Source of the DNA: Plantactinospora endophytica | GTDB taxonomy: Bacteria > Actinomycetota > Actinomycetes > Mycobacteriales > Micromonosporaceae | Direction: 5' to 3' | Assembly: GCF_016862915.1 (NCBI RefSeq) | Contig: NZ_BONW01000041.1 | Location: 124,001 to 188,000 of the forward strand | Length of the DNA stretch: 64,000 nucleotides | Shown: positions 2,513 to 33,167 of the stretch, piece by piece | How the letters are laid out: each line of letters begins with the position of its first letter | Position numbering within the stretch: position 1 is the first letter of the stretch | Position numbers and translations under genes: made by a program | Notes under the pieces: model-generated | The model's input: only the letters and a program-made list of their open reading frames with translations | The model's database searches: none | Told to the model about the DNA's origin: nothing

Positions 2513-3655
2513 GTGCAGTTGACGAGCACAATGTTTCTGCCGCTCCTGGTGTCGGTCGACGACACGAGGTACGGCGAGAGTCACCTGCTCGAAGACTTCA
2601 CCCAGGACCTCGACGTGGGCTACTCGTTCGGACCGCCGTACGGTAATCGCCTGGTCACCTGGGATGACTTGGACCAGCTTGAGGTCAGTCAGGCGGAGCT
2701 TCGGCAGGTGGCGGTCGACAACCTCTACCGGCTCCTGCCGAGGTTGCGGATCGACGGGCAGCCACCCGCGCCGATGCTCTCGTTCGGCGGACTGGAGTCC
2801 ACCGTCCTGCTCGCCGCCGAGGTCTGGGAGGACCTGGAACGCTCCGTGCCGGGCGAGCTGGTCGTCGGCGTACCGGCCAGGGACGTGGTGATCGTCACTG
2901 GTACGGCCTCCCGGCCGGGCATGGAGAAGGTACGCCGGGCGGTGGACCGGATCTTCTTCGCGGGCGACCAGAATCTGCTCAGTCGCGAGCTGTTGGTGTG
3001 GCGGCAGGGCGGCTGGTCCCCGTATCGGGCGACGCCGGAGTCCGAGCCGGAGCCGGAGCGGTGGGAGGAGCCGGGTCCGGAGCGGGCCGGTCCGGAGCGG
3101 GATCGCTGGGAGAGTCCGGACCGGGACCCGGATCGGGGCCGAGACCGGGACCGGGACGGTCGAGCGGGTCCGGAGCGGGTTCGGGAGACCCCGCGTGAGG
3201 ACCCGGAGCGGTTCCGTGAGCCCGGCCGTTGGCGGGGCGCGGGTCCCGAGCGGGAGTCTGAGCCTGAGCCGGGTCGGTGGCGGAGTGCGGGTCCCGAGCG
3301 GGAGTCTGAGCCGGGTCGGTGGCGAGGCGCGGGTCCCGAGCGGGAGCCTGAGCCCGAGCTTGGTCGTTGGCGGGGCGCGGGGCCGGAACGGGAGCCTGAG
3401 CCCGAGCCGGGTCGGCGGCGGGCGGCGCCCCGTCCGGAGCCGGGACCGGCGACGCCTCGATGGCAGAGCGGCCCCCGGCCGGAGCCGGAGGACGAACCCG
3501 AGCCTGAGCCGAGTCGGTGGCGGGGTGGACCGACTCGGGAGCCGGGTCCGTACCGGGTGCCCCGGCAGCGGTCGGGAGACGGCGGGACGACGGACTGGCC
3601 GGAGCGTCCGCCGGTGCGTCGGTCGAAACGACGTAGGCCGAGGCCCAACGGTTGA
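2513..3655 (+). CDS. DUF1444-like protein with repetitive charged tail
   Basis: 380 residues. The first ~175 resemble the YtpQ/DUF1444 family of unknown function (FLPLLVSVDD near the start, GELVVGVPARDVVIVTG, VRRAVDRIFF). From about 3030 the protein becomes a low-complexity tail rich in Glu, Pro, Arg and Gly, with recurring blocks such as GRWRGAGPERE; it ends in a basic stretch. The tail is read in-frame from a DNA repeat that also lies inside the C-terminus of the oppositely transcribed hydrolase gene (677 bp of antisense overlap). The conserved domain is moderately secure; whether the whole tail is translated is unproven. Confidence 0.7.
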   Translation: MQLTSTMFLPLLVSVDDTRYGESHLLEDFTQDLDVGYSFGPPYGNRLVTWDDLDQLEVSQAELRQVAVDNLYRLLPRLRIDGQPPAPMLSFGGLESTVLLAAEVWEDLERSVPGELVVGVPARDVVIVTGTASRPGMEKVRRAVDRIFFAGDQNLLSRELLVWRQGGWSPYRATPESEPEPERWEEPGPERAGPERDRWESPDRDPDRGRDRDRDGRAGPERVRETPREDPERFREPGRWRGAGPERESEPEPGRWRSAGPERESEPGRWRGAGPEREPEPELGRWRGAGPEREPEPEPGRRRAAPRPEPGPATPRWQSGPRPEPEDEPEPEPSRWRGGPTREPGPYRVPRQRSGDGGTTDWPERPPVRRSKRRRPRPNG

Positions 3656-4568
3656 GCTCGGTGAACACCTGCCGACGGACGGCCGGTCCGGAGAGGGTGA
3701 GGTCGTGCAGGGCGCCGTCGAACCGGGTCAGCGTTACGTGCCGGCCCAGCTTCGGCGCCCACCGGGCGATGTGCTCGACGTCGAGTACGGCGTCCGACAG
3801 CGCCGCCGACTCGTCCCAGGTCCGTCCCCGGAAGGTGCGGTTCGAGATGCTGACCAGGACCGGCACCGGGATCTCCAGTCCGGCGCGCAGTTGCCGTTGC
3901 GCCCGTCCGATCGCGGCGAGCCAGCCGACCCGGACCGGGAAACCGGCCACCGGCTTCCAGCCGAGGTCGTAGCTCCATTCGCCCCGGTGCTCGGTGTGCA
4001 GGCTGTGGCCGTACACGGCGGACAGCCGGCGGGGGACGGTCCGGTAGGGCATCCGGTGGCTGACCCGGGCGAGCATCGCCAGGCCCGGCCGGCGGACCAG
4101 CCAGGGCATGTTGAGGTCGAAGAACGGGCTGTTCAGGAAGAGCCCGTCGACGATGCCGGCGGATCGGCGGGCGTGCGCCCAGAGCGCCGTGACCAGGCCG
4201 CCGGTGGAGTGTCCGTTGACCAGCAACGTACGGTTGCCGTCCGTCTCGCGGATGATCCGGGCCGCCGCGTCGAGTTCGGGGAAGTACTCGGTCAGGTCGC
4301 GACAGAAGTTCGGCGTCTGGTGCGGCAGCAGGCTGCGCCCGTGTTTGCGCAGGTCGAGTGCGTAGAAGTGCCAGCCGTTCTCGACGAAGAAGTTGGCCAG
4401 GTGGGTCTGGAAGAAGTAGTCGGCGAACCCGTGCACGTAGAGCACGGCACGGTCGCTGGCCCGGCTCGCCCGGCGGTGGACCAGCGTGGCCACCACCGGC
4501 CCCTCCTCGTCCCGGCCGAGGTCGATCGTCTGCCGCTCGTACGGCGGGCCGAGCAGGTCCGGTTCCAC
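2979..4568 (-). CDS. alpha/beta hydrolase (lysophospholipase/monoacylglycerol lipase-like) with Pro/Ala tail
   Basis: 529 residues. About the first 310 form an alpha/beta hydrolase: oxyanion region VLYVHGFADY, nucleophile Ser121 in GHSTGG, and a late His in DGALHDLTLSGP. The family cleaves ester bonds of lipids; the exact substrate is unknown. Residues ~320-529 are a disordered Pro/Ala/Asp tail with repeated PARDPR and ATDPAQ blocks, antisense to the tail of the DUF1444-like gene. The GTG start at 4568 has a leaderless-type promoter (TAGCGT, 7 nt). The gene is divergent from ssb. Family members normally end near the end of the hydrolase domain, so the tail is the odd part. Confidence 0.85.
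   Translation of the reverse strand: MEPDLLGPPYERQTIDLGRDEEGPVVATLVHRRASRASDRAVLYVHGFADYFFQTHLANFFVENGWHFYALDLRKHGRSLLPHQTPNFCRDLTEYFPELDAAARIIRETDGNRTLLVNGHSTGGLVTALWAHARRSAGIVDGLFLNSPFFDLNMPWLVRRPGLAMLARVSHRMPYRTVPRRLSAVYGHSLHTEHRGEWSYDLGWKPVAGFPVRVGWLAAIGRAQRQLRAGLEIPVPVLVSISNRTFRGRTWDESAALSDAVLDVEHIARWAPKLGRHVTLTRFDGALHDLTLSGPAVRRQVFTELNRWASAYVVSTDAPADAPASPSSRRLPTAAGAPGTDPAPESVHPATDSAQARVRPPAPAGGRSAIEASPVPAPDGAPPAADPARAQAPVPAPRPANDQARAQAPARDPRLATDPAQTPARDPHSATDPAQAQTPARDPRPANGRAHGTAPGPHAGSPEPAPDPLDRPGPGLGPDPGPGPDSPSDPAPDRPAPDPAPPTAPAPARTPASPDTGTSRPAATPTARD
3225..3420. repeat. coding minisatellite, about four 48-54 bp units
   Basis: Units of roughly 48-54 bp share a core GCGGGTCCCGAGCGGGAG. 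On the plus strand they encode GRWRxAGPERExEPE blocks; on the minus strand they encode PARDPRxATDPAQ blocks. The array lies between the conserved domains of two convergent genes and is open in both coding frames. Confidence 0.8.
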
Positions 4569-4575
4569 CCTGCCG

Positions 4576-4581
4576 ACGCTA
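4576..4581 (-). promoter_or_regulatory. leaderless-type -10 element of hydrolase gene
   Basis: TAGCGT on the minus strand ends 7 nt before the GTG at 4568. Confidence 0.5.
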
Positions 4582-4739
4582 CTCCGCGATACCAGACCAG
4601 CCCTTGATCAGGGCGTTTTCCACAGGGTGCCTGGTTGTCCACAGTCGGGTGGGCGATGGTGGCAGCCCGCCGTCTCCGGTGGCGATGCTGTCGGTCGAGT
4701 CGGCTCGGACGGGAACAACCGGATCCCTGTGGAGGGACG

Positions 4740-5636
4740 ATGTTCGATACTTATATGACCATTGTCGGTAATGTGCTGACCGCACCGGAATGGCGGCGTA
4801 CCAGCCAGAGTGGCACCCTGGTGGCCAATTTCAAGGTGGCCTCGACCGCTCGTCGCCTCGACCGGGAAAGTGGCCGATGGGTCGACGGCAACAGCCTGCG
4901 CGTCAGGGTGAACTGTTGGCGGAAGCTGGCGGAGGGGGTGGCCTCCTCGGTGATGGTCGGTGACCCGGTCGTCGTGGTCGGTCGGCTCTACACCCGCGAC
5001 TGGACCGACGACACGGGCAACCACCGCACCATGTACGAGTTGGAGGCGGTGGCCGTCGGCCATGACCTGTCCCGGGGAAGGGGACGGTTCGCCCGGAACC
5101 GGCCGTCGATGACGACCTCGTCGATGGAGGAAGCCGAGGCCGAGGCCAGGGTGCACGGCGAGGCCACCGAGTCGGTGTCGCCCGAGGAGGCGCCGGCGCT
5201 GCCCGACGAGCGTCCGTTCGGCGACGACGACTACTACCGGGGCCTCCCTGTGCCGTCGAGCCCCGCGCTCGACCCGGCGCACCTGTCGGCCACGTCCTTC
5301 GACGGCCGGCTCGACCTCGACGGGCTGCCTGACGACGACGTGACCGGTCCGGAGGACGACCTGGACGAGCGATCCGGTTCGTCGACCGGCACCGCCTACG
5401 CTGCGCTGACCAGCGACAACGGCCGGAAGGCCAGCGACAACGGCAGCGGGGCCAGCGGCCGGGACGGCGGCGACGCGCTCGCCGTCGAGGGCGAGGGCGG
5501 CGAACCCGGCACCTCCGGCGGGGGCGAGGACGACCAGCGGCTCGGCAACGAGCACGACGACACCGTGCAGCTCGATCGGACCGGTGGCACCGGTCGCGGC
5601 CGGCGTGGCCGGGGCCGAGAGCCGGTTTCCGTCTGA
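4740..5636 (+). CDS. ssb: single-stranded DNA-binding protein, long variant
   Basis: 298 residues. The N-terminal ~115 residues form an SSB OB-fold (MTIVGNVLTAPEW, ANFKVASTARR, VNCWRKLAEGV, VVVVGRLYTRDW). Proteins of this family coat single-stranded DNA in replication and repair. The remaining ~180 residues are an acidic, Gly/Asp-rich tail. It does not end in the acidic DDDIPF-type tip that recruits partners to the main SSB; instead the C-terminus is basic (GRGRRGRGRE). This suggests a secondary, SsbB-like protein. The ATG at 4740 follows GGAGGG by 3 nt. It is divergent from the hydrolase gene. Confidence 0.9.
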   Translation: MFDTYMTIVGNVLTAPEWRRTSQSGTLVANFKVASTARRLDRESGRWVDGNSLRVRVNCWRKLAEGVASSVMVGDPVVVVGRLYTRDWTDDTGNHRTMYELEAVAVGHDLSRGRGRFARNRPSMTTSSMEEAEAEARVHGEATESVSPEEAPALPDERPFGDDDYYRGLPVPSSPALDPAHLSATSFDGRLDLDGLPDDDVTGPEDDLDERSGSSTGTAYAALTSDNGRKASDNGSGASGRDGGDALAVEGEGGEPGTSGGGEDDQRLGNEHDDTVQLDRTGGTGRGRRGRGREPVSV

Positions 5637-5888
5637 ACGCTTCCGGACCGGGCACATCGGCGGGCTGATATCCAGCCTGGACGTGCCTGATCCGGCGGTC
5701 CGGCCGGGGGTAGGCGGCCGGACAACGGGTCGCCCGGAAAGAGCGGTGGTCGCCTCCCCGCCGCCATCCGGGCCGACCGAGGGTGGGGAGGTCGGTCGCG
5801 GCACTCGCCGGCCTCCCCACCCGACCGTTCGCGCATTACCCCCGCCCGTACCGCCCCGGGATGGGCGGCGGCGCGACCCCCATAGCCC

Positions 5889-7394
5889 TTACGGCCGAGG
5901 GCCCTCGGCACGGGACGTCTGCGCCCGGCGGGGCGCCGGTACCGCTCGGGTCGGCAGACCATCCCGCGCAGCCTGCTCGGTCCGCTCCGGTACCCGGCCA
6001 GTCTGCTCGGTCCGGTCGGGTGCCCGGCCAGTCTGCTCAGTCCGGTCCGGTACCCGGCCAGTCTGCTCGGGCCGGTCGGGTGCCCGGCCAGCCTCGGCAA
6101 CGTCGGCAACCTCACCAGCCTCGGTGGCCGGTACGGGTGGCTGGCCGGGCTGCCGCTGCCGTACGACACCCGACGGCGGTACCGCCGTTCGTGGTCGGCG
6201 CCGGGGACCGAGCACACGCATCATCGGTGTCTCGACGAACCGGAAGAGCAGCCAGGCGGCGGCCAGACTGACCAGCAACAGGACGATCGCGACGACCGGC
6301 CCTCGCCAACCGGTGAACCCGCCGGAGTGCCCGGCAAAGCGGAAGATGGCCTTGATCAGGAAGACATGGACCAGATAGAACGCGAACGAGACCTCGCCGA
6401 GCCAGACCAGCGGCCGGGACCGCCACGGCGACCAGCGCCCGGTCACGTCGGCCCGGGCCGCGCTCGCGATCACCAGTATGTAGCCGAAGGCCAACACGGT
6501 GGTCCAGAGTTCAGCGCGGATCCACTCCATCGACGCCACCCAGATCGCGACGAAGAGACCGGTGGAGAGCAGCAGACCGGGGCCCCGCCACTTCCCGCGC
6601 AGCATCAGTTCGGCGGCGGCGACGCCCATCCAGAACTCGAAGGAGCGGACGACGGGGAAGATCTGGGTGAACCACCAGCGGGCGGTTTCCGGCAGCAGTT
6701 GCTGACCCGGCCACATCGCCATGATCAGCAGTGGCATGGCGACGACGACGGCGTAGAGCTGCCAGGCCCGCATCCGACGGATCAGCGGGAGGACGAACGG
6801 GAGCGCGAGATAGAAGAACATCTCGCAGGCGAGCGACCAACTCACGTTGTTGATGCTGTAGAAGTAGCCGTTGACGGGAATCCACGCCTGGACCAGGAAC
6901 AGGTTGGCCAGCGCGGCCTTCACGTTGACCGGGTCGGCCCAGTAGAGCGCGAGTGCGAGGACCAGGGCCCAGGTGACGAGGTGGTTCGGATAGATCTTCG
7001 CGGCCCGACGCCGCCAGAAAGCGCGTCTGGTGTCGTCCGGCCGGGCAGACCAGACCAGCACGAACCCGCTGAGGATGAAGAAGAACTGCACCCCGGAGAG
7101 GCCGAGCGTGAAGACCCAGTCGACCACCTGGCGATACCCCGGTTCGGCGACGATCTGCATGGTGCCGACGTGAAAGCCGAAGACCAGCATCGCGGCGACC
7201 CACCGCAGCCCGGTCAGCGACGGCAACCGGTTCAGCGCCGTCCCGGCGCCGCCTCGTCCCGTCCCGTCCGGTTTTCTCGTCGCACCGGCGGCAGTCGTTC
7301 CGCCGGCAACCGTCGTGTCGCCGGGTTCCGCCGTTTGGCCCGAGCCTGCCGGACCGCCGGCCGGAATTTCCGTGACGGGCGTCACGCTGGTCAT
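5889..7394 (-). CDS. acyltransferase-3 family membrane protein
   Basis: 501 residues. A Gly/Thr-rich cytoplasmic leader (1-55) is followed by an acyltransferase-3 (OafA/YrhL type) domain with about ten membrane helices. Visible motifs include SLTGLRWVAAMLVFGFH with the catalytic His, FFFILSGFVL, WSLACEMFFY and FAFYLVHVF. Such enzymes move acyl groups onto extracellular glycans or lipids. Residues ~400-501 are a charged tail containing 10-residue repeats (RTEQTGRVPD type) encoded by a 30-bp tandem array. The ATG has GGGGAGG 4 nt upstream. It converges with ssb across a 252-bp spacer in which I see no clear element. Confidence 0.9.
   Translation of the reverse strand: MTSVTPVTEIPAGGPAGSGQTAEPGDTTVAGGTTAAGATRKPDGTGRGGAGTALNRLPSLTGLRWVAAMLVFGFHVGTMQIVAEPGYRQVVDWVFTLGLSGVQFFFILSGFVLVWSARPDDTRRAFWRRRAAKIYPNHLVTWALVLALALYWADPVNVKAALANLFLVQAWIPVNGYFYSINNVSWSLACEMFFYLALPFVLPLIRRMRAWQLYAVVVAMPLLIMAMWPGQQLLPETARWWFTQIFPVVRSFEFWMGVAAAELMLRGKWRGPGLLLSTGLFVAIWVASMEWIRAELWTTVLAFGYILVIASAARADVTGRWSPWRSRPLVWLGEVSFAFYLVHVFLIKAIFRFAGHSGGFTGWRGPVVAIVLLLVSLAAAWLLFRFVETPMMRVLGPRRRPRTAVPPSGVVRQRQPGQPPVPATEAGEVADVAEAGRAPDRPEQTGRVPDRTEQTGRAPDRTEQTGRVPERTEQAARDGLPTRAVPAPRRAQTSRAEGPRP
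5973..6092. repeat. 30-bp coding tandem repeat, four units
   Basis: Four consecutive 30-bp units share the core GTGCCCGGCCAGTCTGCTC with minor changes. They encode the ten-residue repeat in the acyltransferase tail. The 30-bp length keeps the reading frame. Confidence 0.9.
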
Positions 7395-7658
7395 CGGACC
7401 TCCCCGATGGGCACATCGATGGCCAGCACTTACGCCTCCCGTCGGGAAAGTTGTGCCGGGATGTCCGGTCGCGCGGCGCCTCCCGGCCGGGTACGCCCGC
7501 TGTGGCGGGTCCGCCCGCGACCCTATCCGGTGCCGGGGCGGGGTGCCGTGGGCACGGGCACCAACCGGTTCGGCGTACCGGTGGAGGCGCTGGTCAGCGA
7601 GCTGTTGATCGTCATCGGGGCGGCCCGGCTAGGCTCCGGGGCGGGGGAGGTGGTCGCC

Positions 7659-10462: not shown

Positions 10463-10533
10463 CCGACCCACCTCCGGCGACACGTCGGGCAAGTCGGCTC
10501 GCCTGTACCCGTCGGCTTGGGCGTCTGCGCACG

Positions 10534-10733
10534 TCGGGCGGGTCGCCTGCGCCCGCTCGGTCGGGTTACCTACGTGCGGTGGTTGGCCATTCGGGCGGGT
10601 CGCCTGCGCCCGCTCGGTCGGGTTACCTACGTGCGGTGGTTGGCCATTCGGGTGCGGTGCTCGGGTCGGCTACCTGCCGTGGTCGGGTTATCTGGGTGCG
10701 GTGGCCGGGCCTCCGGTGTGCGGTGGCCGGTTA
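10534..10733. repeat. 57-bp tandem duplication plus degenerate copies beside the rhodanese 3' end
   Basis: Two copies of a 57-bp unit occupy 10534-10590 and 10591-10647, followed by shorter, degraded copies. Each copy contains GGTTACCT or GGTTATCT, which recurs at 10728-10735 where it holds the stop codon and last codon of the minus-strand rhodanese gene. The array therefore appears to contain echoes of that gene's 3' end. Confidence 0.75.
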
Positions 10734-11141: not shown

Positions 11142-11177
11142 TGGATCATTCTCTCCCTGCCCAGGTCAGCCCCGGAG

Positions 11178-11183
11178 TAGGGT
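11178..11183 (+). promoter_or_regulatory. leaderless-type -10 element
   Basis: TAGGGT ends 7 nt before the ATG at 11191. No ribosome-binding site lies between them. Confidence 0.55.
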
Positions 11184-11190
11184 TCGCCAG

Positions 11191-11811: not shown

Positions 11812-11902
11812 CGGACTGACCCTGGTCCGCTTATGGACGTATCCGGATCGCTGCGGCACGATCGGCAGAACAGGCCGACGCGCGGCGGGCGGGGGGCACA
11901 CC

Positions 11903-14732: not shown

Positions 14733-14836
14733 GGTCGCGGTGTGACCCGGTCGGCTACTCCGACGGCGGAGGCACCGTCGACCGGGTCGCGGTGTGACCC
14801 GGTCGGCTACTCCGACGGCGGAGGCACCGTCGACCG
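14733..14836. repeat. perfect 52-bp tandem duplication covering a gene 3' end
   Basis: Two identical 52-bp copies lie head to tail (14733-14784 and 14785-14836). The right copy contains the last ten codons and stop of the minus-strand LPITG protein. The left copy is a non-coding echo with its own stop. Because 52 is not a multiple of three, the reading frame ends in the right copy. Confidence 0.97.
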
Positions 14837-16995: not shown

Positions 16996-17115
16996 AAGCC
17001 GGGACGAGGGCGGGACGGGGCCAGGACGAGGGCGGGACGGGGAGCGAGGGCGGCCGGAGAACGTGGCCGGGCGGCCGGAGGATGAGGTCGGACGGCCGGA
17101 AGATGTCGGTGGTGG
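16996..17115. repeat. two degenerate short tandem repeats upstream of ligase
   Basis: The spacer holds two copies of a ~22-bp unit with core GGACGAGGGCGGGACGGGG, then three diverged copies of a ~22-bp unit beginning CGGCCGGA (GAACG, GGATG and AAGATG variants). No gene is seen here. Confidence 0.65.
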
Positions 17116-20525: not shown

Positions 20526-20698
20526 GCCGGCTCCTCCCACTGCCACACCGGCCCGTTCCGCAGACCTTAACCCGGAGCGCCCGCCAGCCTTCACCCCGGA
20601 GCGCCCGCCAGCCCTCGGATCCGAAGCCTCCGACCGCACCTCAGCTCCGGAGCATGATCGCTGCCGTCGGTAGCTGCGCCGAGTGCCACGCCCGGCCC

Positions 20699-20760
20699 GA
20701 GTTCAGGGGCGGGGAGTGCTGGCCGGCTGGAGTTCAGGAGCGGGGAGTGTTGGCCGGCTC
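20699..20760. repeat. 31-bp tandem duplication covering the SURF1 gene 3' end
   Basis: Two 31-bp copies (20699-20729, 20730-20760) differ at three positions. The right copy contains the last codons and TGA of the minus-strand SURF1 gene; the left copy is non-coding and repeats the stop. Confidence 0.9.
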
Positions 20761-21567
20761 GTCCAGTCGGTCCAGTCCGGCCCGGTTCCGGCGGTCGTCG
20801 CCGTCCTTGAGGTCGCCGCGCGCCTCCCGGCGGGCCGCCCAGCCGAAGCCGACCAGGGTCAGCAGCGCGAACAGCCACCACTGGACGACGTACCCGCCGT
20901 TCTGCCAGTCGTTCTCGTGCCGGATCGGTATCGCCGAGAATGTCGGGTCGGCGGCCGGGGTCTGCTCGTCCAGCAGCAGGTACCCGGAGAAGACCGGATA
21001 GGGCAGTTCGCGGGCCAGCGCCGGTACGGCGATCCGCCGGGTCTCGATCCGGCCGTCCCGTCGGGTGACGGCGTCGGGCTTGCTCTCCGACAGGTGCACC
21101 CGGCCGATCACCGTCACCTCGCCGGACGGGGCGGCGGGGATCTCCGGCCGGGCCAGCGCGCTGCCACCGGCGGCCGGCGGGATCCAGCCCCGGTCGACCA
21201 GCACCGCACTTCCGTCGGGCAGCCGCAACGGGGTGAGCACCTCGAACCCGACCTTGCTCTCCACGGTGCGGCTGCGGATCAGGATCACGTTCGTGCTGTC
21301 GTACCGTCCGGTCACCGTGACCCGGGTCCAGGCCGCGCCGGCCGGCGGCGCCGGACCGGTCGTGCCGGCCGCGCCGTCGGGCCGGGGCAACACCTGGTCC
21401 ACCGGTACCGGCGCCAGGGTCGCGGTCTCGTCGATCCGCTCGTTGATCGCCGCCCGCTCCTGGTAGCGACTCAACTGCCAGTTGCCGAGCAGCACCATCA
21501 CCGCAGCCGCGGCCAGGGTCAGCGCGAGGATGCCCAGCCAGCGGGGCGTGAGCAGGAACCGGTACAC
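20734..21567 (-). CDS. SURF1 family cytochrome oxidase assembly protein
   Basis: 277 residues with the SURF1 layout: an N-terminal helix (FLLTPRWLGILALTLAAAAVMVLLGNWQL), a periplasm-facing domain with VTVTGRYD, VGFEVLTPLRL and VLVDRGWIPP, and a second helix (GYVVQWWLFALLTLVGFGW). SURF1 helps haem A insertion into cytochrome c oxidase. The start is GTG with a leaderless-type promoter. The 3' end is duplicated in the downstream spacer. Confidence 0.93.
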   Translation of the reverse strand: MYRFLLTPRWLGILALTLAAAAVMVLLGNWQLSRYQERAAINERIDETATLAPVPVDQVLPRPDGAAGTTGPAPPAGAAWTRVTVTGRYDSTNVILIRSRTVESKVGFEVLTPLRLPDGSAVLVDRGWIPPAAGGSALARPEIPAAPSGEVTVIGRVHLSESKPDAVTRRDGRIETRRIAVPALARELPYPVFSGYLLLDEQTPAADPTFSAIPIRHENDWQNGGYVVQWWLFALLTLVGFGWAARREARGDLKDGDDRRNRAGLDRLDEPANTPRS

Positions 21568-21772: not shown

Positions 21773-24346
21773 ATGATCGCTGCGCCACGTGTAGTGGTGA
21801 GCGCACCGTCATCCGGACACGGCAAGACCGCCATCGCGGTCGGCCTGCTCGCCGCGCTCGCCGCCCGAGAGCTGGACGCCGCCGGTTTCAAGGTCGGCCC
21901 CGACCACACCGACGCCGCCTACCTCGGCCTCGCCGCCGGGCGGCCGGGCCGCAACCTCGACCCCCGGCTGGTCGGCTCGCAGCGGATCGCGCCGCTCTTC
22001 GCGCACGGCTCCGCGGACGCGGACATCGCGGTGGTGGAGGGCACGATGGGGCTCTTCGACAGCCTGGCCGGCCGGCCGGAGGTCGACTCGACCGCCGCGA
22101 TCGCCACCGCGCTGCGCGCCCCGGTGGTGCTGGTCGTCGACGTCGGCTCGATGGGCCAGTCCGTCGCCGCGCTGGCGCACGGCTTCCGGGCGTACGACGA
22201 GATGCTCTGGCTCGGCGGCGTGATCCTGAACCGGGTCGCCTCGGACCGGCACGAGCAACTGCTCCGCGACGCACTGGACGACATCGGCGTACCGGTCTTC
22301 GGGGCGTTGCGCCGACGGGACCTGCCCGCCGTCCTGCCGTCCCGGCAGCACGGGGTGGTGCCGGTGATGCAGCGCGGGGTCGAGGCGTACCGGGGGGTGC
22401 GCCGGCTCGGCGAGGCGATCGCCGGAGCCGTCGATCTCGACCGGCTGCTGGCGCTGGCCCGCTCGGCACCCCGGGTGCCGGTGACCGCCTGGTCGGCGGC
22501 GGAGGCGCTCGCCGAACTGGGGCCGGTCGACGAGGCACCGGCCCGGCGTACGGTGGTGGCGCTGGCCGGTGGACCCTCCCTGTCGTACTCGTACGCCGAG
22601 ACTGCGGAACTGCTGGCGGCGGCCGGTGCCGAGGTGGTGACCTTCGACCCGCTCCGCGACGAGGCGCTGCCGTCCGGTGCCGGTGCGCTGGTGATCGGCG
22701 GCGCGCTGCCGGAGGCGTACGCCGAGGAGTTGTCGGCGAACCGTCGGCTCTGCATCGCGGTCGCCGAACTGGCCCGTACCGGTCGACCCGTGATCGCCGA
22801 GGGAGCCGGCCTGCTCTGGCTGGCCCGGGAGTTCGACGGGCGGCCGATGTGCGGGGTGCTGGACGCCGTCGGGGCGAGCCTGGACCGGACGGTGGTCGGT
22901 TACCGGGAGGCGACAGCGCGCGCCGACACTCCGGTGGCCCGGCTCGGTGCCCGGGTGGTTGGCTACAAGCAGCATCGCGGGTTGCTGACTCCGCGCGCCG
23001 GGCAGACCCCGGCATGGAGCTGGGGCGGTGGCCCGCCGGAGGGATTCGTCTGGCGCCGGGTCCACGCCTCGCAGTTGACCCTGCACTGGGCGAGCAGCCC
23101 GGTGATCGCCAGCCGGCTGGTCGCCGCCGCCGCGTCGGTCGTAACGCCCGACCCGGCCGGACCGGCGCCCGTGCCGTCCGCCGCCCCGGCCGGCGCCGCT
23201 GCCTCGGCCCCGGACCCGGCCGGCTCGGCCACCCCGGTGTCGCCCGGCCCGGTGGGCCCGGCCGCTCCGGTGTCGCCCGGCCCGGTGGGTCTGGCCGCTC
23301 CGGTGTCACCGGCGCTGGTCGGCCCGGCCGCTCCGGTCTCCCCGTCGGGCCTGGTGGGCCCGGCGGCGCCGGTCTCGCCGCCGGCCCCGGGTGGGCCGGT
23401 CACCCCGGTTCCGCCGTCCGGCCCGGCCGCCCGGCCGCCCGTCCCCGCCGCTCCGACGTCAGCCGCACCGGGCCAGCCGACGCCGGGCGCTCCGGCCCGA
23501 CCCGTACCGTCCGGCGGTCCGGTGCCACCCGCCGGCTCCGTTCCGCCTGCCGGCCTTGTTCCGCCCGCCGGCTCTGTTCCGTCTGGCGGGCCTGTTCCGC
23601 CCGGCGGCCCTGTTTCGCCTGCTGGACCGGTTCCGTCCGGTGGCCCTGTGTCGTCCGGTGGCCCTGTGTCGTCCGGTGGTCCCGCTCAGTCGGTTGGTCC
23701 CGCTCAGGCGGGTGGCCCCGCTCAGCCGGGTGGTCCTGGGCGGTCCGGGCCGGGCTGGGCCGGACCCGGTGGCGGTGGCCCGGGTACTCCTGCTTCGATG
23801 TTCGGCGCCCCCGCCGCGCCCTCCGGAGCGGGGCCGGCCGGATCGGGCGCCCCCCGGCCACACTCGGGTCCGCCCGCACCGTTGGCCGGGTCGACCGCTG
23901 CCCAGCGGGACGTTCCCGGGTCACCCGGCTCGCCCGGTAGCTCACCGCCCGGTTCGGCCGGTAGTCCGCCCCCGGTTCCGGCCGGCAACCCGCCGTCCGG
24001 CGTGCACGGGGTCGGGGCCGGTCCGATCGTTCCTCCCGCGCCTCGGCAACGGCCGGCTGCCGGGGCCGACACCGGCGGGACTGGGGCCGCGCCCCGGCCG
24101 AGGCCGGTACCCGCCGACGAGCACGGTGCGCCGACGGGCGCCGTCGACCGACCGGCGCCGGCCCGGAGCGGCGAGCCGGCTACCAGGCCGGGGGCCGACC
24201 CCGCGTACGTCCCGGGCAGGCCGCCCGGTTCCGGCCGGCCGGGGACCGACCCGGCGGCGGACGTCGCCGGACCGGGGCGAGCGGCCGGTCCCGACCCGGT
24301 GGCCGGCTCGGTGCCGAGCAGCCCGGCCGGTGGACCGGTGGCGTGA
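21773..24346 (+). CDS. cobB: CobB/CbiA-like cobyrinate a,c-diamide synthase with degenerate glutaminase site and long tail
   Basis: 857 residues; the family is usually about 450-470. Residues 1-~225 keep the ligase domain: P-loop SSGHGKT, KVGPD..D, GRPGRNLDP and VVEGTMGLFD. Residues ~260-450 align with the glutamine amidotransferase domain, but the expected AEC(A/G)G is AEGAG (Gly344 in place of the nucleophile Cys) and the expected HASYLH is HASQLT (Thr436 in place of His). Residues ~460-857 are a Pro/Ala/Gly/Ser tail built of 33- and 18-bp DNA repeats. The protein may use free ammonia, or be a non-catalytic paralogue; the gene symbol marks family, not proven activity. The ATG has GAGGAG upstream. 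Confidence 0.85.
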   Translation: MIAAPRVVVSAPSSGHGKTAIAVGLLAALAARELDAAGFKVGPDHTDAAYLGLAAGRPGRNLDPRLVGSQRIAPLFAHGSADADIAVVEGTMGLFDSLAGRPEVDSTAAIATALRAPVVLVVDVGSMGQSVAALAHGFRAYDEMLWLGGVILNRVASDRHEQLLRDALDDIGVPVFGALRRRDLPAVLPSRQHGVVPVMQRGVEAYRGVRRLGEAIAGAVDLDRLLALARSAPRVPVTAWSAAEALAELGPVDEAPARRTVVALAGGPSLSYSYAETAELLAAAGAEVVTFDPLRDEALPSGAGALVIGGALPEAYAEELSANRRLCIAVAELARTGRPVIAEGAGLLWLAREFDGRPMCGVLDAVGASLDRTVVGYREATARADTPVARLGARVVGYKQHRGLLTPRAGQTPAWSWGGGPPEGFVWRRVHASQLTLHWASSPVIASRLVAAAASVVTPDPAGPAPVPSAAPAGAAASAPDPAGSATPVSPGPVGPAAPVSPGPVGLAAPVSPALVGPAAPVSPSGLVGPAAPVSPPAPGGPVTPVPPSGPAARPPVPAAPTSAAPGQPTPGAPARPVPSGGPVPPAGSVPPAGLVPPAGSVPSGGPVPPGGPVSPAGPVPSGGPVSSGGPVSSGGPAQSVGPAQAGGPAQPGGPGRSGPGWAGPGGGGPGTPASMFGAPAAPSGAGPAGSGAPRPHSGPPAPLAGSTAAQRDVPGSPGSPGSSPPGSAGSPPPVPAGNPPSGVHGVGAGPIVPPAPRQRPAAGADTGGTGAAPRPRPVPADEHGAPTGAVDRPAPARSGEPATRPGADPAYVPGRPPGSGRPGTDPAADVAGPGRAAGPDPVAGSVPSSPAGGPVA
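23237..23740. repeat. coding tandem repeats in the CobB tail
   Basis: From 23237, three 33-bp units and one 36-bp unit encode VSPGPVGPAAP-type blocks. From about 23510 to 23740, shorter units (mostly 18 bp) encode SGGPVS/PAGSVP-type blocks, including consecutive TCCGGTGGCCCTGTGTCG copies. All unit lengths are multiples of three. Confidence 0.85.
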
Positions 24347-24380
24347 TCCGCTCCGGTGGCGAGTGGGGTGAGTCGACGGT

Positions 24381-24950
24381 ATGAGCGGCGAGGTGGCGGT
24401 GCGCCGCTTTCCGACCCTGACCGTGTCGACGCCCCGGGTGCACGTACGGCCGCTGCGGGCAAGGGACGCGGGCGCGGTATCGGCGATCTTCGCCGACAAG
24501 CAGACCCAGCGCTGGCTGCCGTTCCACCGCGAACTCGGGCAGATCGACGGCGACGCGTGGTGCACCGAGATGGCCCAGGAGCGGCGGGACAGCGGTAACG
24601 GTGACCACTACGGCGTGGTCCGGCGCGAGGACGAGCGGCTGGTGGGCTGCCTGTGGACGAAACGCACCGACTGGGGAGGCCGGGTCACCGAGGTGTCGTA
24701 CGCGATCGCGCCGGAGGCGCGCGGGTTCGGTATGGCGGCGGAGGCGGTCGACGCGATAGCCGTGGCGTTGATCCTGGAGCACGGATTCCAGCGCCTCGAA
24801 CTTCGGGTGGCTCCCGGCAACACCGCGTCCCGGCGGGTCGCGGAGAAGGCCGGCTTCACCTACGAGGGGCTGCTGCGCAACGCCGGGTACGTGCACAGCG
24901 GCCGGGTCGACCTGGAGGTCTGGTCCCTGGTCGCGGCCGACCTGCACTGA
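24381..24950 (+). CDS. GNAT family N-acetyltransferase (RimJ/RimL-like)
   Basis: 189 residues. It has the opening VHVRPLRARDAGAVSAIF, the acetyl-CoA-binding region EARGFGMAAEAV, LELRVAPGNTASRRVAEKAGF and the ending EGLLRNAGYVHSGRVDLEVW. This matches acetyltransferases acting on protein N-termini or small amines; the substrate is unknown. The stop codon lies in the first unit of a 15-bp tandem array that continues into the spacer. Confidence 0.9.
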   Translation: MSGEVAVRRFPTLTVSTPRVHVRPLRARDAGAVSAIFADKQTQRWLPFHRELGQIDGDAWCTEMAQERRDSGNGDHYGVVRREDERLVGCLWTKRTDWGGRVTEVSYAIAPEARGFGMAAEAVDAIAVALILEHGFQRLELRVAPGNTASRRVAEKAGFTYEGLLRNAGYVHSGRVDLEVWSLVAADLH

Positions 24951-25040
24951 GCCGACCCGCACTGAGCCCACTTGCGCTGTGCCGGCGTGCACCGAGGCGG
25001 CGTGCACCGAGGCGGCGTGCGCCGAGGCGACCTGCATTGG
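24936..25040. repeat. 15-bp tandem repeat, seven units, starting in the GNAT gene end
   Basis: Seven contiguous 15-bp units. Unit 1 (24936-24950) is the last four codons and stop of the acetyltransferase gene. The following units carry the same GCxGxCxTGCxCxGA pattern with increasing divergence. The array fills most of the spacer before the convergent PBP gene. Confidence 0.85.
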
Positions 25041-25088
25041 GCTGCCGGGCGGTGAACCGGCCCGCGCCGCGTGGCGGCGTTGCGCGCG

Positions 25089-27254: not shown

Positions 27255-27260
27255 GTTTCC

Positions 27261-27266
27261 AAGCTA
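27261..27266 (-). promoter_or_regulatory. leaderless-type -10 element of PBP gene
   Basis: TAGCTT on the minus strand ends 6 nt before the GTG at 27254. It lies in a locally AT-rich intergenic stretch. Confidence 0.55.
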
Positions 27267-27392
27267 TGATAAGTCCTGGCAAAACATGATAAAGATTCGC
27301 GGATGTGCCGCTCTCCGGCCCGACCGGTTCGATCACCTCCGATCCGCTCCGAGACGTCCGCTGGCCGCCACGGTCGGCCGCCCGGCAGGATC

Positions 27393-28604
27393 ATGCGCAT
27401 GCACCGGCCGGCACCCGCTCCGCCCTCCGTCGGGCCTGATCTCGGCCACCACGGCGACGTCGAGCTCGCCCCCGGCCTGGTGGATCTCGCGGTCAACGTC
27501 CAGCGGCAGCCGATGCCCGCCTGGCTGCGGGAGCCGATCGTCGCCTCGCTGGAGACGCTGACCGCCTATCCCGATCCGGCCCCGGCCCGGGCCGCCGTCG
27601 CCGCCCGGCACCGGCGGCCGGTCGACGAGGTGCTGCTGACCGCCGGGGCGGCGGAGGGGTTCGTGCTGCTCGCCCAGGCTCTCCGGGGGGCCCGCCGGCC
27701 GGTGGTCGTGCATCCCCAGTTCACCGAGCCGGAGGCCGCGCTGCGGGCGGCCGGACACCTGGTCGAGCGGGTGCTGCTGCCGCCGGAGACCGGCTTCCGG
27801 CTGGACCCCGACCTGGTACCGGCCGACGCCGACCTGGTCTTCGTGGGCAACCCGACCAATCCCACCTCGGTACTGCACCCGGCCGACGTCCTGGCCGGCC
27901 TGGCCCGTCCCGGCCGGACCCTGGTCGTCGACGAGGCGTTCGCCGACTCCACCATCACCCCCGTTGACCCCCAGACCGACCCCGCCAGCCGTCAGCCCGA
28001 CCCCGCCAGCCGTCAGCCCGAGCCATCCAGCCGTCAGCCCGAGCCAGGGAACGGTCATTCCGAGCCAGGGAACGGTCAGCCTGAGTCCGGGGACGGTCGG
28101 CCCGAGCCGGAGTCGCTGGCCGGCCGGCGGGACCTGCCGGGGTTGGTCGTTGTGCGGAGCCTCACCAAGACCTGGGGACTGGCCGGACTCCGGATCGGCT
28201 ACCTGCTCGGCCCGGCCCCGCTGCTCGGGCGGCTGGCGGCGGTACAACCGCTCTGGGCGGTCTCGACTCCCGCGCTCGCGGCGGCTGCCGCCTGCGCCAC
28301 TCCCGAGGCGGTGGCGGCCGAGCGCCGGATCGCCGCGCGACTCGCCGCCGAACGCGGGTACCTGGTCCGTCGGCTGGGCGAACTGCCCCGGGTACGCGTC
28401 GCGGGTACCCCGGCCAGCGCCTTCGTGCTGATCCACCTGCCCGGGGCGGCGCGGGTACGGCTGGCGCTGCGGGATCGGGGCTTCGCGGTCCGGCGCGGGG
28501 ACACCTTCCCGGGCTTGGGCCCCGACTGGCTACGCCTCGCGGTACGGGACACTGCCACCACCGACCTGTTCGTGGCCGCGCTGGCCGGAATCCTGGAGGA
28601 ATGA
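27393..28604 (+). CDS. cobC: PLP-dependent aminotransferase, CobC/threonine-phosphate decarboxylase-like
   Basis: 403 residues, fold-type I aminotransferase of the HisC/CobD-like group: DLAVNVQRQPMP, FVGNPTNPTSVLHP, VVDEAFADS and PLP Lys259 in SLTKTWGLAGLRIGYL. Neighbours cobT and cysG-cobA, linked by 4-bp overlaps, favour a role in making the aminopropanol part of cobalamin over histidine synthesis. A 42-residue insertion of seven-residue repeats (PASRQPD type) lies between the VVDEAF and SLTK motifs. Two starts are possible (ATG 27393 or 27399, after AGGA). Confidence 0.85.
   Translation: MRMHRPAPAPPSVGPDLGHHGDVELAPGLVDLAVNVQRQPMPAWLREPIVASLETLTAYPDPAPARAAVAARHRRPVDEVLLTAGAAEGFVLLAQALRGARRPVVVHPQFTEPEAALRAAGHLVERVLLPPETGFRLDPDLVPADADLVFVGNPTNPTSVLHPADVLAGLARPGRTLVVDEAFADSTITPVDPQTDPASRQPDPASRQPEPSSRQPEPGNGHSEPGNGQPESGDGRPEPESLAGRRDLPGLVVVRSLTKTWGLAGLRIGYLLGPAPLLGRLAAVQPLWAVSTPALAAAAACATPEAVAAERRIAARLAAERGYLVRRLGELPRVRVAGTPASAFVLIHLPGAARVRLALRDRGFAVRRGDTFPGLGPDWLRLAVRDTATTDLFVAALAGILEE
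27978..28103. repeat. 21-bp coding tandem repeat, six units
   Basis: Six 21-bp units with core CCAGCCGTCAGCC in the early copies and GGGAACGGTCA in the later ones. They encode seven-residue blocks inside the cobC-like enzyme without breaking frame. Confidence 0.92.
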
Positions 28605-29686: not shown

Positions 29687-29688
29687 TC

Positions 29689-31230
29689 ATGTATCCGCTT
29701 GCGCTGCGGCTCGCCGGCCGACGGGTGCTGGTGGTGGGTGGCGGTGCGGTGGCGACCCGGCGGGTGCCGGCGCTGCTGGACGCGGAGGCCCGGGTGGTGG
29801 TGGTCGCGCCCGAACTGACCCCGGCGCTGCGCGCGCACGTCGACGCGGGCCGGCTGGAGTGGGTCGCCCGGGAGTTCGTGCCGGCCGACCTCGACGGAGC
29901 CTGGCTGGTGCAGGTGGCCGTCGACGACCCGGCCGCCGCCGAGGCGGTCAGCGCCGCCGCGCTGGAGCGGCAGATCTTCTGCGTACGTGCCGACGACCGC
30001 GACGCCGCGACCGCCTGGACCCCCGCGGTGACCCGGTACGGCCCGCTCACCGTCGCCGTGCTCGGCGGCGGTGACCCGCGTCGGGCCGTGGCGGTCCGGG
30101 ACGCGATCCGCGAGCAGTTCATCACCGGAACGCTCGCCACCGGAACGCTCACCACCGGAGCACTCGCCACCGGTGCGGATGCCACCGGAGCACTTGCCAC
30201 CGCTGCGGATGCCAGCGGAACACTCGCCACCGGCGCGGACGCGGCCGGTAACGGCGTCTCGCCGGAGCGGACCGGCACCGACGGCCCGACGGCCGACCCG
30301 GCGACGATGGACGACTCGACGGCCGACGGCTCCATGCCGGACGACTTGACGTTGGACGGCTCGACGGTCGACGGGGCGGCGGTCGACGGGACGAGGGTCG
30401 ACGGGACGGCGGTCGACAGGGCGATGGCGGACGGAGGCAGCCCGGGCGGGCGGCCGACGCGTCCCGTCGGCCGGGTCGCGCTGGTCGGTGCGGGGCCGGG
30501 CGACCCCGAGCTGATCACGATCCGTGGCCGGCGGCTGCTCGCCGAGGCGGACGTGGTGGTCGCCGACCGGCTGGTCCCCGGGTTGCTCCTCGACGAGTTG
30601 CGCCCCGAGGTCGAGCTGGTGGACGCCACCAAGATCCCGCACGGGCCGGCCGCCGCGCAGGAGGAGATCAACCGGGTCCTGGTGGACCGGGCCCTGGCCG
30701 GCGCCCGGGTGGTACGCCTGAAGGGCGGCGACCCGTACGTCTTTGGCCGGGGTGGCGAGGAGGCGCTGGCCTGTGCCGCCGCCGGCATACCGGTGACCGT
30801 GGTGCCCGGGGTGACCAGCTCGGTCGCCGCGCCGGCAGCGGTGGGCATCCCGGTGACGCACCGGGGCGTGGCGCACGAGTTCACGGTCGTCTCCGGGCAC
30901 CTTCCGCCGGACCATCCCGGTTCGCTTGTCGACTGGTCGGCGCTGGCGAAGCTGCGCGGCACCCTGGTCGTACTGATGGGGCTGAACAACCTGCCGGCGA
31001 TCACCGCCGCGCTGCGGGCGTACGGCCGGTCGCCGGAGACCCCGGCGGCGGTGGTGCAGGAGGGTACGACCGACGGTCAGCGGCTGCTCCGGTCGACGCT
31101 CGGCGCGATCGCGGAGGAGGTGCGGGCCGCCGGGTTCCGTCCGCCGGCCGTGGTGGTCGTCGGTGACGTGGTGGAGACGCTGGCCGGACTGCCCGCCACC
31201 AGCGGCGTCACCGGCAGCCGAGTCGATTGA
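29689..31230 (+). CDS. cobA: fused siroheme/precorrin-2 dehydrogenase-like domain and uroporphyrinogen-III C-methyltransferase
   Basis: 513 residues. The N-terminal CysG-B-like domain (1-~145) has a Rossmann GGGAVATRR motif. The C-terminal SAM methyltransferase domain (~260-505) has VGAGPGDPELITIRG, RLKGGDPYVFGRGGEE and VTHRGVAHEFT. It makes precorrin-2, the branch point to cobalamin and siroheme. The linker is a ~110-residue low-complexity stretch encoded partly by a 15-bp array (TGxLA) and then Asp/Gly/Thr-rich blocks. I chose ATG 29689 for GGAG 8 nt upstream; ATG 29683 overlaps the cobT stop. Confidence 0.94.
   Translation: MYPLALRLAGRRVLVVGGGAVATRRVPALLDAEARVVVVAPELTPALRAHVDAGRLEWVAREFVPADLDGAWLVQVAVDDPAAAEAVSAAALERQIFCVRADDRDAATAWTPAVTRYGPLTVAVLGGGDPRRAVAVRDAIREQFITGTLATGTLTTGALATGADATGALATAADASGTLATGADAAGNGVSPERTGTDGPTADPATMDDSTADGSMPDDLTLDGSTVDGAAVDGTRVDGTAVDRAMADGGSPGGRPTRPVGRVALVGAGPGDPELITIRGRRLLAEADVVVADRLVPGLLLDELRPEVELVDATKIPHGPAAAQEEINRVLVDRALAGARVVRLKGGDPYVFGRGGEEALACAAAGIPVTVVPGVTSSVAAPAAVGIPVTHRGVAHEFTVVSGHLPPDHPGSLVDWSALAKLRGTLVVLMGLNNLPAITAALRAYGRSPETPAAVVQEGTTDGQRLLRSTLGAIAEEVRAAGFRPPAVVVVGDVVETLAGLPATSGVTGSRVD
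30124..30243. repeat. 15-bp coding tandem repeat, eight units
   Basis: Eight consecutive 15-bp units of the ACCGGAACGCTCGCC type, diverging to the right, encode five-residue TGTLA/TGADA blocks at the junction of the two enzyme domains. Confidence 0.92.
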
Positions 31231-31403
31231 AGCATCTTTACATATCGATCGAGTCGCGCGAAACTTGTCGCCATAGGTGGCGGGGCTGATCCAGCCGCCA
31301 CTCAGGATGGCGGCCCCGGTGTGCGGTGCGATCGGTTCCGGCGTCCGACGAGGCCGGCCGACCCCGGTCGGCGGTGCGGCCGACGAGGCGAGGGGCGCTG
31401 GCG

Positions 31404-33167
31404 ATGGCAGACCCATACGGGCGAATTCGGCGACGTTCGTGGCACGGCAGGACCGGTACCCGGCGGCTGCTGCTGACCGGGCTGCTGGCCCTGGCGACGA
31501 CCGCCGCCGGCCTGACACCGGCCGGCGCGGCGCTCCCGACGCCCGGCGGAGCGCTCCCGCCGGCCGACCGAGCACCGACATCAGCCGGCGGAGCAGGTCC
31601 GGCAAGCGGAGCAGGTCTGGCGGGCGGTGCAGGTCTGGCGGGCGGTGCAGGTCTGGCGGGCGGTGCAGGTCCGGTGGGCGGGGCGGACGGCGTGCCGCCG
31701 CCCACCGTCGCGGACCGGTCCAGTGTGGACTGCCCGGTGGGCGACGTCCCGAAGCGGCAGCTCCGGGGCACCTGGATCGCGTCCGTCTCCAACATCAACT
31801 GGCCGTCCCGGGCCGGACTGACCGCCGCCGCGCAGCAGGCCGAACTGCGCGGCCTACTCGACCAGGCTGCCGCGCTCCGGCTCAACGCGGTGTTCCTCCA
31901 GATCCGGCCGGCCGCCGACGCGTTCTGGCCGTCACCCCACGAGCCGTGGTCGCAGTATCTGACCGGCAGCCAGGGCGGGAATCCCGGGTACGACCCGCTC
32001 GCCTTCGCCGTCGCCGAGGCGCACGCCCGCAACCTTGAACTGCACGGCTGGTTCAACCCGTACCGGGTGAGTACCCAGGGCGATCCGGCCCGGCTGGTCG
32101 CCGGGCATCCGGCCCGGGTCAACCCGAGCTGGGTGGAACGCTACGACGGCAAGCTCTACTACAACCCCGGGGTGCCGGCCGCCCGGCGGCACACGGTCAA
32201 CGCGATCATGGACGCGGTGACCCGGTACGACCTCGACGGGGTGCACTTCGACGACTACTTCTACCCGTACCCGGTGAGTGGCCAGACCTTCGACGACGCG
32301 GCCGAGTACGACGCGTACGGGGCGGGCCGGTCGCTCGCGGACTGGCGGCGGTCCAACGTCGACACGCTGGTGCAGGAGTTGGGCGCTCGGATCAGGCAGG
32401 CCAAGCCGCACGTCAGGTACGGCATCTCACCGTTCGGCATCTGGCGCAACGCCGGCACCGACCCGCTCGGCTCGGCCACCACCGGCCTACAGTCCTACGA
32501 CGCCATCTATGCCGACACCCGTAAGTGGGTGAAGCAGGGCTGGATCGACTACGTGGCGCCGCAGCTCTACTGGACGATCGGTTTCCCGGCCGCCGCCTAC
32601 GACGTGCTGGTGCCCTGGTGGTCCGAGGTCGTCGCCGGCACCGACGTGCAGCTCTACGTCGGCCAGGCGGCGTACCGGATCGCGGAGTGGGGCGACCCGG
32701 CGGAGATGCCGGACCATCTGCTGCTGAACCGGAACCACCGGGTCTCCGGGGACATCTACTACTCGGTCAAGCAACTGCTTGCCAACCCGCTGGGCTTCGC
32801 CGACCGGCTGCGTACCGACTTCCACCGCTATCCGGCGCTGGTGCCGGTCAACGCCCGGCTCGGCGGTACGCCGCCCGGAGCGGTCCGGTCGCTGGCCGCC
32901 CGCCGGGTCGGTACCGGCGTGGAGCTGACCTGGACGGCCCCGTCCGGCGGTACCGCACCGGCCTACTATGCGATCTACCGCGCCGACGCTGCCGGCTGCG
33001 GCATCGACGCCGCCCGCAACCTGCTCCGGCTCCAGCGGGCCGGCTCCGGCACCCAGCGCTTCACCGACACCGCACCGCCCCCGGTCGGCGCCCCGGGCTA
33101 CCTGGTCACCGCCGTCTCCCGCCTGCACCACGAGAGCCCGCCCACAGCGGTCACCGTGGCGCCGTAG
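31404..33167 (+). CDS. secreted glycoside hydrolase-like protein (GHL10/DUF187)
   Basis: 587 residues. A signal peptide (basic start, LLLTGLLALATTAAGLTPAGA) is followed by a Gly/Ala linker with five six-residue GAGLAG repeats. Then comes a GHL10-type barrel (~105-470): RGTWIASVSNINWPS, LNAVFLQIRPAADAFW, DGVHFDDYFYPYP, YGISPFGIWRN and YVAPQLYW. A fibronectin-III-like C-terminal domain (~490-587) ends it. The family is thought to hydrolyse extracellular glycans; the substrate is unknown. The ATG follows AGGGG. A strong hairpin terminator lies downstream. Confidence 0.88.
   Translation: MADPYGRIRRRSWHGRTGTRRLLLTGLLALATTAAGLTPAGAALPTPGGALPPADRAPTSAGGAGPASGAGLAGGAGLAGGAGLAGGAGPVGGADGVPPPTVADRSSVDCPVGDVPKRQLRGTWIASVSNINWPSRAGLTAAAQQAELRGLLDQAAALRLNAVFLQIRPAADAFWPSPHEPWSQYLTGSQGGNPGYDPLAFAVAEAHARNLELHGWFNPYRVSTQGDPARLVAGHPARVNPSWVERYDGKLYYNPGVPAARRHTVNAIMDAVTRYDLDGVHFDDYFYPYPVSGQTFDDAAEYDAYGAGRSLADWRRSNVDTLVQELGARIRQAKPHVRYGISPFGIWRNAGTDPLGSATTGLQSYDAIYADTRKWVKQGWIDYVAPQLYWTIGFPAAAYDVLVPWWSEVVAGTDVQLYVGQAAYRIAEWGDPAEMPDHLLLNRNHRVSGDIYYSVKQLLANPLGFADRLRTDFHRYPALVPVNARLGGTPPGAVRSLAARRVGTGVELTWTAPSGGTAPAYYAIYRADAAGCGIDAARNLLRLQRAGSGTQRFTDTAPPPVGAPGYLVTAVSRLHHESPPTAVTVAP
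31590..31679. repeat. 18-bp coding tandem repeat, five units
   Basis: Five 18-bp units of the GGTGCAGGTCTGGCGGGC type encode GAGLAG between the signal peptide and the catalytic domain. Confidence 0.95.

Follow-up and report, generated by a model that had tools for sequence, protein, structure and literature searches.

We examined the tandem repeat arrays of a 64-kb stretch of the Plantactinospora endophytica genome, hereafter called the window (positions 124001 to 188000 of contig C41 in G000, a genome of 9.68 Mb). Arrays were called with Tandem Repeats Finder (TRF), and an array is termed strong when its TRF score is at least 100. The 55 TRF rows of the window merged into 33 arrays, 11 of them strong, at a density of 0.516 per kb and covering 4.55% of the bases. 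Their units were rich in guanine plus cytosine (GC), and nested periods (15/30, 18/36, 30/60) occurred among them, a hint of local duplication followed by slippage or unequal exchange. An earlier sequence-only reading of this DNA had taken the arrays for in-frame minisatellite expansions, more frequent than random codons would give. This agreed with a control in which the triplets of the window were shuffled within 1.5-kb blocks: 20 such copies gave a mean of 3.5 arrays and a maximum of 7, none with a score of at least 100. The array density of the window was higher than that of its own genome. The distribution was also uneven, with 28 arrays in the left half and 5 in the right (p = 1.5e-4); the left part was array-denser in the six genus relatives described below as well, but not in L003, a contig of Micromonospora echinofusca MPMI6. 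Weak TRF rows at 33976 and 46336 are no expansions, as orthologue lengths there are equal to within 3 bp.

The array-bearing genes encode a long-tailed CobB, CobC, a CysG-type protein in which siroheme synthase N-terminal and uroporphyrinogen methyltransferase domains are fused, an acyltransferase-3 protein, a GHL10 protein and an alpha/beta hydrolase, whose neighbouring gene is DUF1444-like. The DUF1444-like gene (2423-3655, + strand; Pfam DUF1444, E = 7e-4, and NCBIfam PRK13668, E = 6e-7, both below cut-off) has a charged repeat tail and a genus-conserved C-terminal end. Its core is 79-98% identical across the six genus relatives, with substitutions mainly at codon position 3. The hydrolase gene (2979-4568, − strand; Pfam Hydrolase_4, E = 4e-19) has an open C-terminal tail that runs antisense through the DUF1444-like tail, and an array with a unit of about 45-48 (90) bp, at 3217-3422, lies within the open frames of both strands. 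In the acyltransferase-3 protein (5889-7394, −) an array with a 30/60-bp unit occupies the C-terminal tail (5969-6094, −). CobB (21773-24343, identified by NCBIfam), whose domain ends near residue 440-468 according to NCBIfam, carries two arrays in its long tail, at 23209-23440 (+; units 15/18/33/66) and 23528-23736 (+; units 18/36/54). CobB and CobC (27303-28601) are separate here; both match the NCBIfam fused CobBC family below cut-off, and the array-bearing tail of CobB starts near residue 468, about where the CobC half begins in fused CobBC. The CobC array (27972-28108, +; unit 21/42) sits, according to the domain match, in a loop inside the aminotransferase domain, and the interdomain linker of the CysG-type protein (29689-31230) contains two arrays with 15/30-bp units (30123-30239 and 30279-30434, both +). 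Finally, an array with an 18-bp unit (31587-31681, +) lies between the N-terminal hydrophobic segment and the domain of the GHL10 protein (frame 31326-33164); it is upstream of the called gene start (31674), yet inside the open frame that starts at 31326.

All six arrays for which the sequence-only reading had given coordinates were thus recovered by TRF. Its view that the arrays sit at domain borders is too narrow, since the CobC insert and the ligase insert are loops inside catalytic domains. Likewise, 28 of the 33 best-scoring periods are multiples of three, but not all units are, as had been supposed: exceptions are a 52-bp unit at the 3' edge of a gene whose end is at 14807 (14733-14837), a 22-bp unit upstream of the ligase core (16998-17042), and units of 31 bp (20692-20761) and 28 bp (45473-45539) at gene edges. 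The sequence-only reading had overlooked such arrays between genes or at their edges. Two further inserts had been counted as less regular expansions, and neither turned out to be an array. The ligase insert (about 17970-18375) differs in length from species to species and even at TRF score 30 contains no tandem array, its only repeat being 2.1 copies of a 9-mer. The DUF1015 gene, at 55279-56571, lies outside the part of the window in which the expansions had been described and has no TRF array of score at least 50.

We then compared array periods inside and outside genes. Genes were called with a 3-periodic Markov model trained on the genus, and coding labels in other genera are less sure. 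Gene overlaps are beyond what this caller can model, and it cuts some genes short at the start; an array that falls at such a shortened start enters the gene-edge class, which inflates the density outside genes. Frame counts were pooled over 60 genus segments (the window and 59 loci), in which syntenic regions are included and some sites are counted in several species. All 63 strong arrays inside called genes had a best period divisible by three, against 14 of 26 in clear intergenic DNA (Fisher p = 4e-8); at gene edges or in upstream open extensions the count was 22 of 36. The best periods of the strong coding arrays spanned 6 to 261 bp. In other genera of the family, 18 of 18 strong coding arrays had such periods, compared with 2 of 6 intergenic ones and 5 of 8 at gene edges. 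For densities we used spaced 20-kb stretches of three genus genomes (20 on 13 chosen contigs of G000, and ten evenly spaced in each of G003 and G004; 792 kb) and 40 stretches from 20 genomes of other genera (800 kb). For strong arrays, the densities in called genes and outside them were 0.045 and 0.238 per kb in the genus and 0.029 and 0.077 per kb in the other genera, gene edges being included outside. The DNA-level, genome-wide process that had been proposed is supported: array formation acts everywhere, and genes hold the survivors.

The same sites were followed in six other genomes of the genus, one per species, by taking syntenic regions in stretches of up to 20 kb chained to the window (G001 and G005 were covered only in part). 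Mean identity over aligned segments was 83-89%. The enzyme cores aligned nearly gap-free and the tails and linkers did not (hydrolase, acyltransferase, CysG-type protein, ligase): in the six relatives and L003, only 17-57% of the array bases within called genes could be aligned, compared with 87-98% of the other coding bases. The suggestion that arrays are tolerated where disorder is harmless is therefore matched by their placement in poorly conserved segments; disorder itself was gauged by composition alone. Length differences at the CobC loop were +243, -66, -78, -87, -123, -129 and -129, and at the CysG linker, with the second array as centre, -249, -255, -162, +27, -213, -99 and -282, all of them multiples of three in the seven relatives. 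No array was present at the CobC loop in six of the seven or at the CysG linker in five of the seven. The CobB tail bore arrays in each of the six relatives of the genus, and their best periods (14-48 bp) varied from species to species. When strong coding arrays were compared with the array at the same site in a relative, the similarity of 12 of 21 pairs stayed within the 95% level of random array pairs. Over all 17 tested sites, conserved weak ones included, unit similarity was above random in 23 of 51 comparisons. The relatives thus mostly do not share the lengths of these arrays, and often not their units; neither this comparison nor the triplet shuffling refuted the sequence-only reading.

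Outside genes, an intergenic array at 10534-10709 (units 57 and 22) has a unit that is absent from four relatives, two of which carry another array there. The 28-bp unit of the gene-edge array at 45473 was recognisable in all four array-less relatives, each above the 99th percentile, and this fits duplication in place. A search for such seeds at arrays other than the coding ones reached the 95th percentile in 8 of 16 comparisons.

Inserts of a similar kind in many unrelated proteins could also be produced by a mobile element that enters genes in frame. The Rickettsia palindromic elements are of this type, and one sequence is common to their insertion sites. Among 58 strong arrays sampled from the own genome, however, only 6 of 1653 pairs reached a local score of 50, which upholds the earlier statement that the units are unrelated and no single repeat has spread, and units often differ at one site between sister species. 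We consider a mobile element very improbable.

The copies within arrays are imperfect, with about 15-20% difference per site. Neighbouring copies differed at codon positions 1, 2 and 3 with frequencies of 0.146, 0.148 and 0.197 (49 of the 63 strong coding arrays, those with an indel-free row, that is, one free of insertions and deletions), whereas orthologue differences outside arrays were 0.051-0.077, 0.040-0.058 and 0.159-0.237 in three relatives. The peptides encoded by the 95 coding arrays of score at least 80 contained few hydrophobic residues (0.118; the figure for all genes was 0.314), and the remaining five frames of these arrays gave 0.145-0.189. GC-rich repeats yield hydrophobic-poor peptides in any reading frame. 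Disorder-type residues made up 0.858 of the coding-array peptides, a composition count only. As for position, 51 of the 95 arrays fell in the final 30% of the called gene.

Largely right otherwise in observation and interpretation, the sequence-only reading was too local in one respect: arrays do not mark the own genome but are genus-wide, and they also occur in other genera of the family at about half the strong-array density. The genus sample contained 0.345 arrays per kb (0.082 strong) and the other genera 0.209 (0.040 strong). Single genomes of other genera reached 0.375 per kb (G055), so the genus tops a range and is not set apart. Compared with those other-genus stretches whose GC was above 0.70, the genus had 6.8 against 4.9 arrays per 20 kb (n = 40 and 29; p = 0.007, stretches of the same genome being non-independent). 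Named loci, all chosen around one gene, gave 0.218 arrays per kb (0.027 strong; 737 kb); 38 of 58 were kept, with GC above 0.68 and a length of more than 10 kb, and 20 were dropped. The stretch L094, which overlaps the window, was left out.

The richness of the genus in strong arrays relative to the 20 other-genus genomes, which lies mostly outside genes (0.238 against 0.077 per kb), would be understandable if the genus were a slippage mutator through a lost repair function, the arrays marking the defect. Single other-genus genomes nevertheless match its total density, and NucS, the actinobacterial mismatch endonuclease, was found in 7 of 7 genus genomes and in 119 of 121 genomes of the family sample; loss of this gene was therefore discarded as a cause. 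Moreover, a review states, in the part available to us, that NucS does not correct indels (PMC8228993), and the NucS pathway is thus not expected to stop slippage. A mutator genus appears unlikely to us.

An artefact of assembly or gene calling was also considered. Tandem repeats are often misassembled, and the own assembly consists of 90 contigs; its array lengths may be wrong. The single-contig genomes G003 and G004, however, show 0.340 and 0.330 arrays per kb, and in the alignments inspected several species have the arrays set between enzyme cores with no break in the open frame. That the arrays as such are artefactual is scarcely credible.

We hold it to be very probable that these are ordinary minisatellites, arising by local duplication and reshaped by slippage or unequal recombination in a GC-rich genome, with reading frame and tolerance of disorder as the filters. 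Arrays would be born by local duplication all along the chromosome (71-73% GC) and would grow and shrink by replication slippage or unequal recombination. Within genes, units not divisible by three would be lost, and arrays would persist only where the protein tolerates a disordered insert, in tails, linkers and surface loops. High GC would help arrays to survive, because GC-rich repeats have few stops and, in whichever of the six frames they are read, code for peptides poor in hydrophobic residues. The repeat peptide would be close to neutral, and species could therefore differ in length and often in unit at one and the same linker. The in-frame filter, the placement in non-conserved segments, the turnover between species and the spread of copy differences over all codon positions are directly supported.

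Several observations weigh against this reading or limit it. The frame filter is less clean at lower thresholds, periods divisible by three being found in 95 of 97 coding arrays at score at least 80 and in 232 of 267 at any score (21 of 40 and 32 of 76, respectively, for intergenic ones). The contrast in density shrinks to 0.115 against 0.063 per kb in genes when only clear intergenic DNA of the 60 genus segments is counted, and to 0.033 against 0.029 in the other genera. Tail intervals extend beyond the stop, and some of their length differences are not divisible by three (CobB: -265, -345, -405, +8, -611, -234); weak CobB-tail arrays have best periods of 14 (G002) and 19 (G005), which are no multiples of three either. 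In the seed search at coding arrays, none of the 20 comparisons with array-less relatives reached the 95th percentile. Nine of the 21 same-site strong coding pairs were more alike than 95% of random array pairs, so that, although turnover is common, some arrays may be old or share ancestry. With respect to GC, in the other genera it correlated with all arrays (rho 0.74, p = 2e-4) and not with strong ones (rho 0.16, p = 0.49), and GC was rejected as the sole cause. Lastly, the true frame is not indifferent: the synonymous share of copy differences was 0.316 there, against about 0.21 in shifted frames, and arginine was lower (0.074 against 0.152-0.259 in other frames), although among arrays of any score the hydrophobic fraction of the true frame (0.152) was not below that of the other frames (0.126-0.168). 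The synonymous excess and the low arginine mean that a weak peptide constraint remains; peptide selection is weak rather than absent.

This synonymous excess also speaks for selected arrays, in which linker length or the repeat peptide would tune the enzyme, or which would be contingency loci varying within the population. The presence of arrays at some linkers in several species, as at the CobB tail, points the same way. On the other hand, most copy differences alter the protein, units often turn over between species, and the CobC loop and CysG linker are array-less in most relatives. We judge selected arrays improbable and retain the minisatellite reading with its two filters.

The convergent DUF1444-like and hydrolase genes present a particular case. 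Neither frame meets a stop until past the array at 3217-3422, and the two open reading frames (ORFs; DUF1444-like on the + strand, hydrolase on the − strand) overlap by 677 bp. We sought the DUF1444-like core in 121 genomes of the family, found it in 56 at E = 1e-10, and examined the best 30 of these 56 loci. Both genes with both stops were present in 24 of them; the other six, among them those of G001 and G005, lack a hydrolase match or run off the contig. The ORFs overlapped in 23 of the 24 testable loci, by 95 to 791 bp and over eight genera, G027 being without overlap, and the phase was identical in all 23 (length 2 modulo 3). Measured from the DUF1444-like stop, the hydrolase core, as cut here, ended 29 bp away in 22 of the 23 loci and 38 bp away in the own genome. 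Arrays lay in or touched the overlap in all five genus genomes and in 5 of the 18 others. Every one of the 17 merged overlap arrays had a multiple of three as best period; a sub-period row of 23 was seen inside the 45-bp array of G002. As the array lies in an overlap of a single phase, it seems to add length to two proteins encoded on opposite strands. In another genus (G091; L198 792-1368), a DUF1444-like tail array of four 144-bp units ends just inside the hydrolase overlap.

Substitutions were examined for traces of both frames. Before the array, neither frame stood out in the substitution pattern of the overlap. After it, differences to two relatives at DUF1444-like codon positions 1, 2 and 3 numbered 9, 14, 23 and 9, 9, 20, position 3 of this frame being position 2 of the hydrolase frame. 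In the 60 bases that precede the DUF1444-like stop, mean column entropies over 23 loci were 0.93, 1.23 and 1.06 at positions 1, 2 and 3 of the DUF1444-like frame, which slightly favours the hydrolase frame. Selection for openness of the hydrolase frame was tried as an explanation and set aside: when the codons of the + strand tail were shuffled, the hydrolase frame stayed open with a probability of 0.11-0.87 per locus (23 loci), so that openness in a single species is unsurprising and composition by itself can account for the overlap. Both tails, being free of stops, are presumably translated. We tentatively propose, with slightly more reserve than assurance, that 3217-3422 is a two-strand, two-protein minisatellite in an ancient, frame-locked overlap, where in-frame growth would extend both proteins; such dual expansion would have been repeated in the family, and GC-rich disordered tails would be sites at which long antisense overlaps originate and lengthen through repeat expansion. 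If this is true, a single mutation could lengthen two proteins, and the locus would offer a setting for the growth of long antisense overlaps. A literature search of titles and the starts of abstracts returned, among the matches listed, nothing on a tandem array within a convergent bacterial gene overlap and nothing on minisatellites in enzyme linkers of this family.

Other features of the window can be described briefly. Weak or intergenic arrays include one with a 21-bp unit in the C-terminal part of an SSB-family protein (array 5410-5457, +; gene 4773-5633, +) and one classed as intergenic, with 6.7 copies of a 15-bp unit (24936-25036). The protein at 14810-16570 (−) contains two weak arrays and a weak LPXTG-anchor match (NCBIfam, 17.6 bits, cut-off 15.9), and no Pfam family matched it above cut-off. 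In the aligned regions of the six genus relatives the GHL10 gene (31326-33164) is absent throughout from the syntenic place, which is occupied by a short interval only; L003 has the gene, with 82% identity. The own genome has a further GHL10 gene on contig C1 (53% identity); it is similar to the one copy found in each genus relative and, to judge from this resemblance, is probably the orthologue of that copy. The GHL10 match of genome G006 (L063) contains one in-frame TGA. As for transfer RNAs, the ARAGORN call of tRNA-Arg at 2343-2417 looks ordinary; the two tRNA-Ala calls (7534-7629 and 24230-24306) have an odd length or anticodon position, the second lies within the CobB open frame, and both look false.

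These arrays make mutation and selection separable, since the raw process shows in non-genic arrays, its survivors in genic ones, and the turnover at fixed sites in a comparison of sister species. They are also a warning that enzyme length and tail sequence in high-GC actinobacteria can be repeat noise.

The closest published parallel is that of the Borg elements of archaea. According to the sections of that report available to us (PMC9879509), all Borg repeat units in ORFs are divisible by three and only 14-38% of the intergenic ones are, and the arrays are scattered, with unrelated units, recent independent origin and commonly disordered peptides. The arrays described here resemble them in having in-frame units inside ORFs, less so outside, and in their independent turnover. 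They differ in that the Borg repeats are reported there to be perfect, A-rich and under strong peptide selection, whereas ours show 15-20% difference between copies, are GC-rich, look nearly neutral and lie on a bacterial chromosome. In prokaryotic coding satellites, long units are mostly multiples of three as they lie in genes (PMC6749651; PMC8161180 for Bacillus, both in the passages available). The first of these surveys counts few satellites per Mb under its own criteria, and its densities are not comparable with the present ones; the passages of both papers contain no comparison of orthologous sites, which the present work has. Bacterial repeats of constant size and variable sequence (20-21 or 52 nt), as described in part of PMC8161180, are also unlike the present arrays, with their periods of 6 to 261 bp. 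Excerpts of surveys of protein repeats report relaxed and accelerated divergence between repeat copies (PMC5120217) and an excess of repeats in disordered regions and near the ends of proteins (PMC7230257). The coding arrays share the relaxed copy divergence, the disorder-promoting residues and the bias to protein ends (51 of 95); those surveys, in the same excerpts, range across life, and here the same linkers were followed within one bacterial genus. The general phenomenon is thus already known, and the present arrays, turning over at fixed enzyme linkers, give a clear bacterial example of it.

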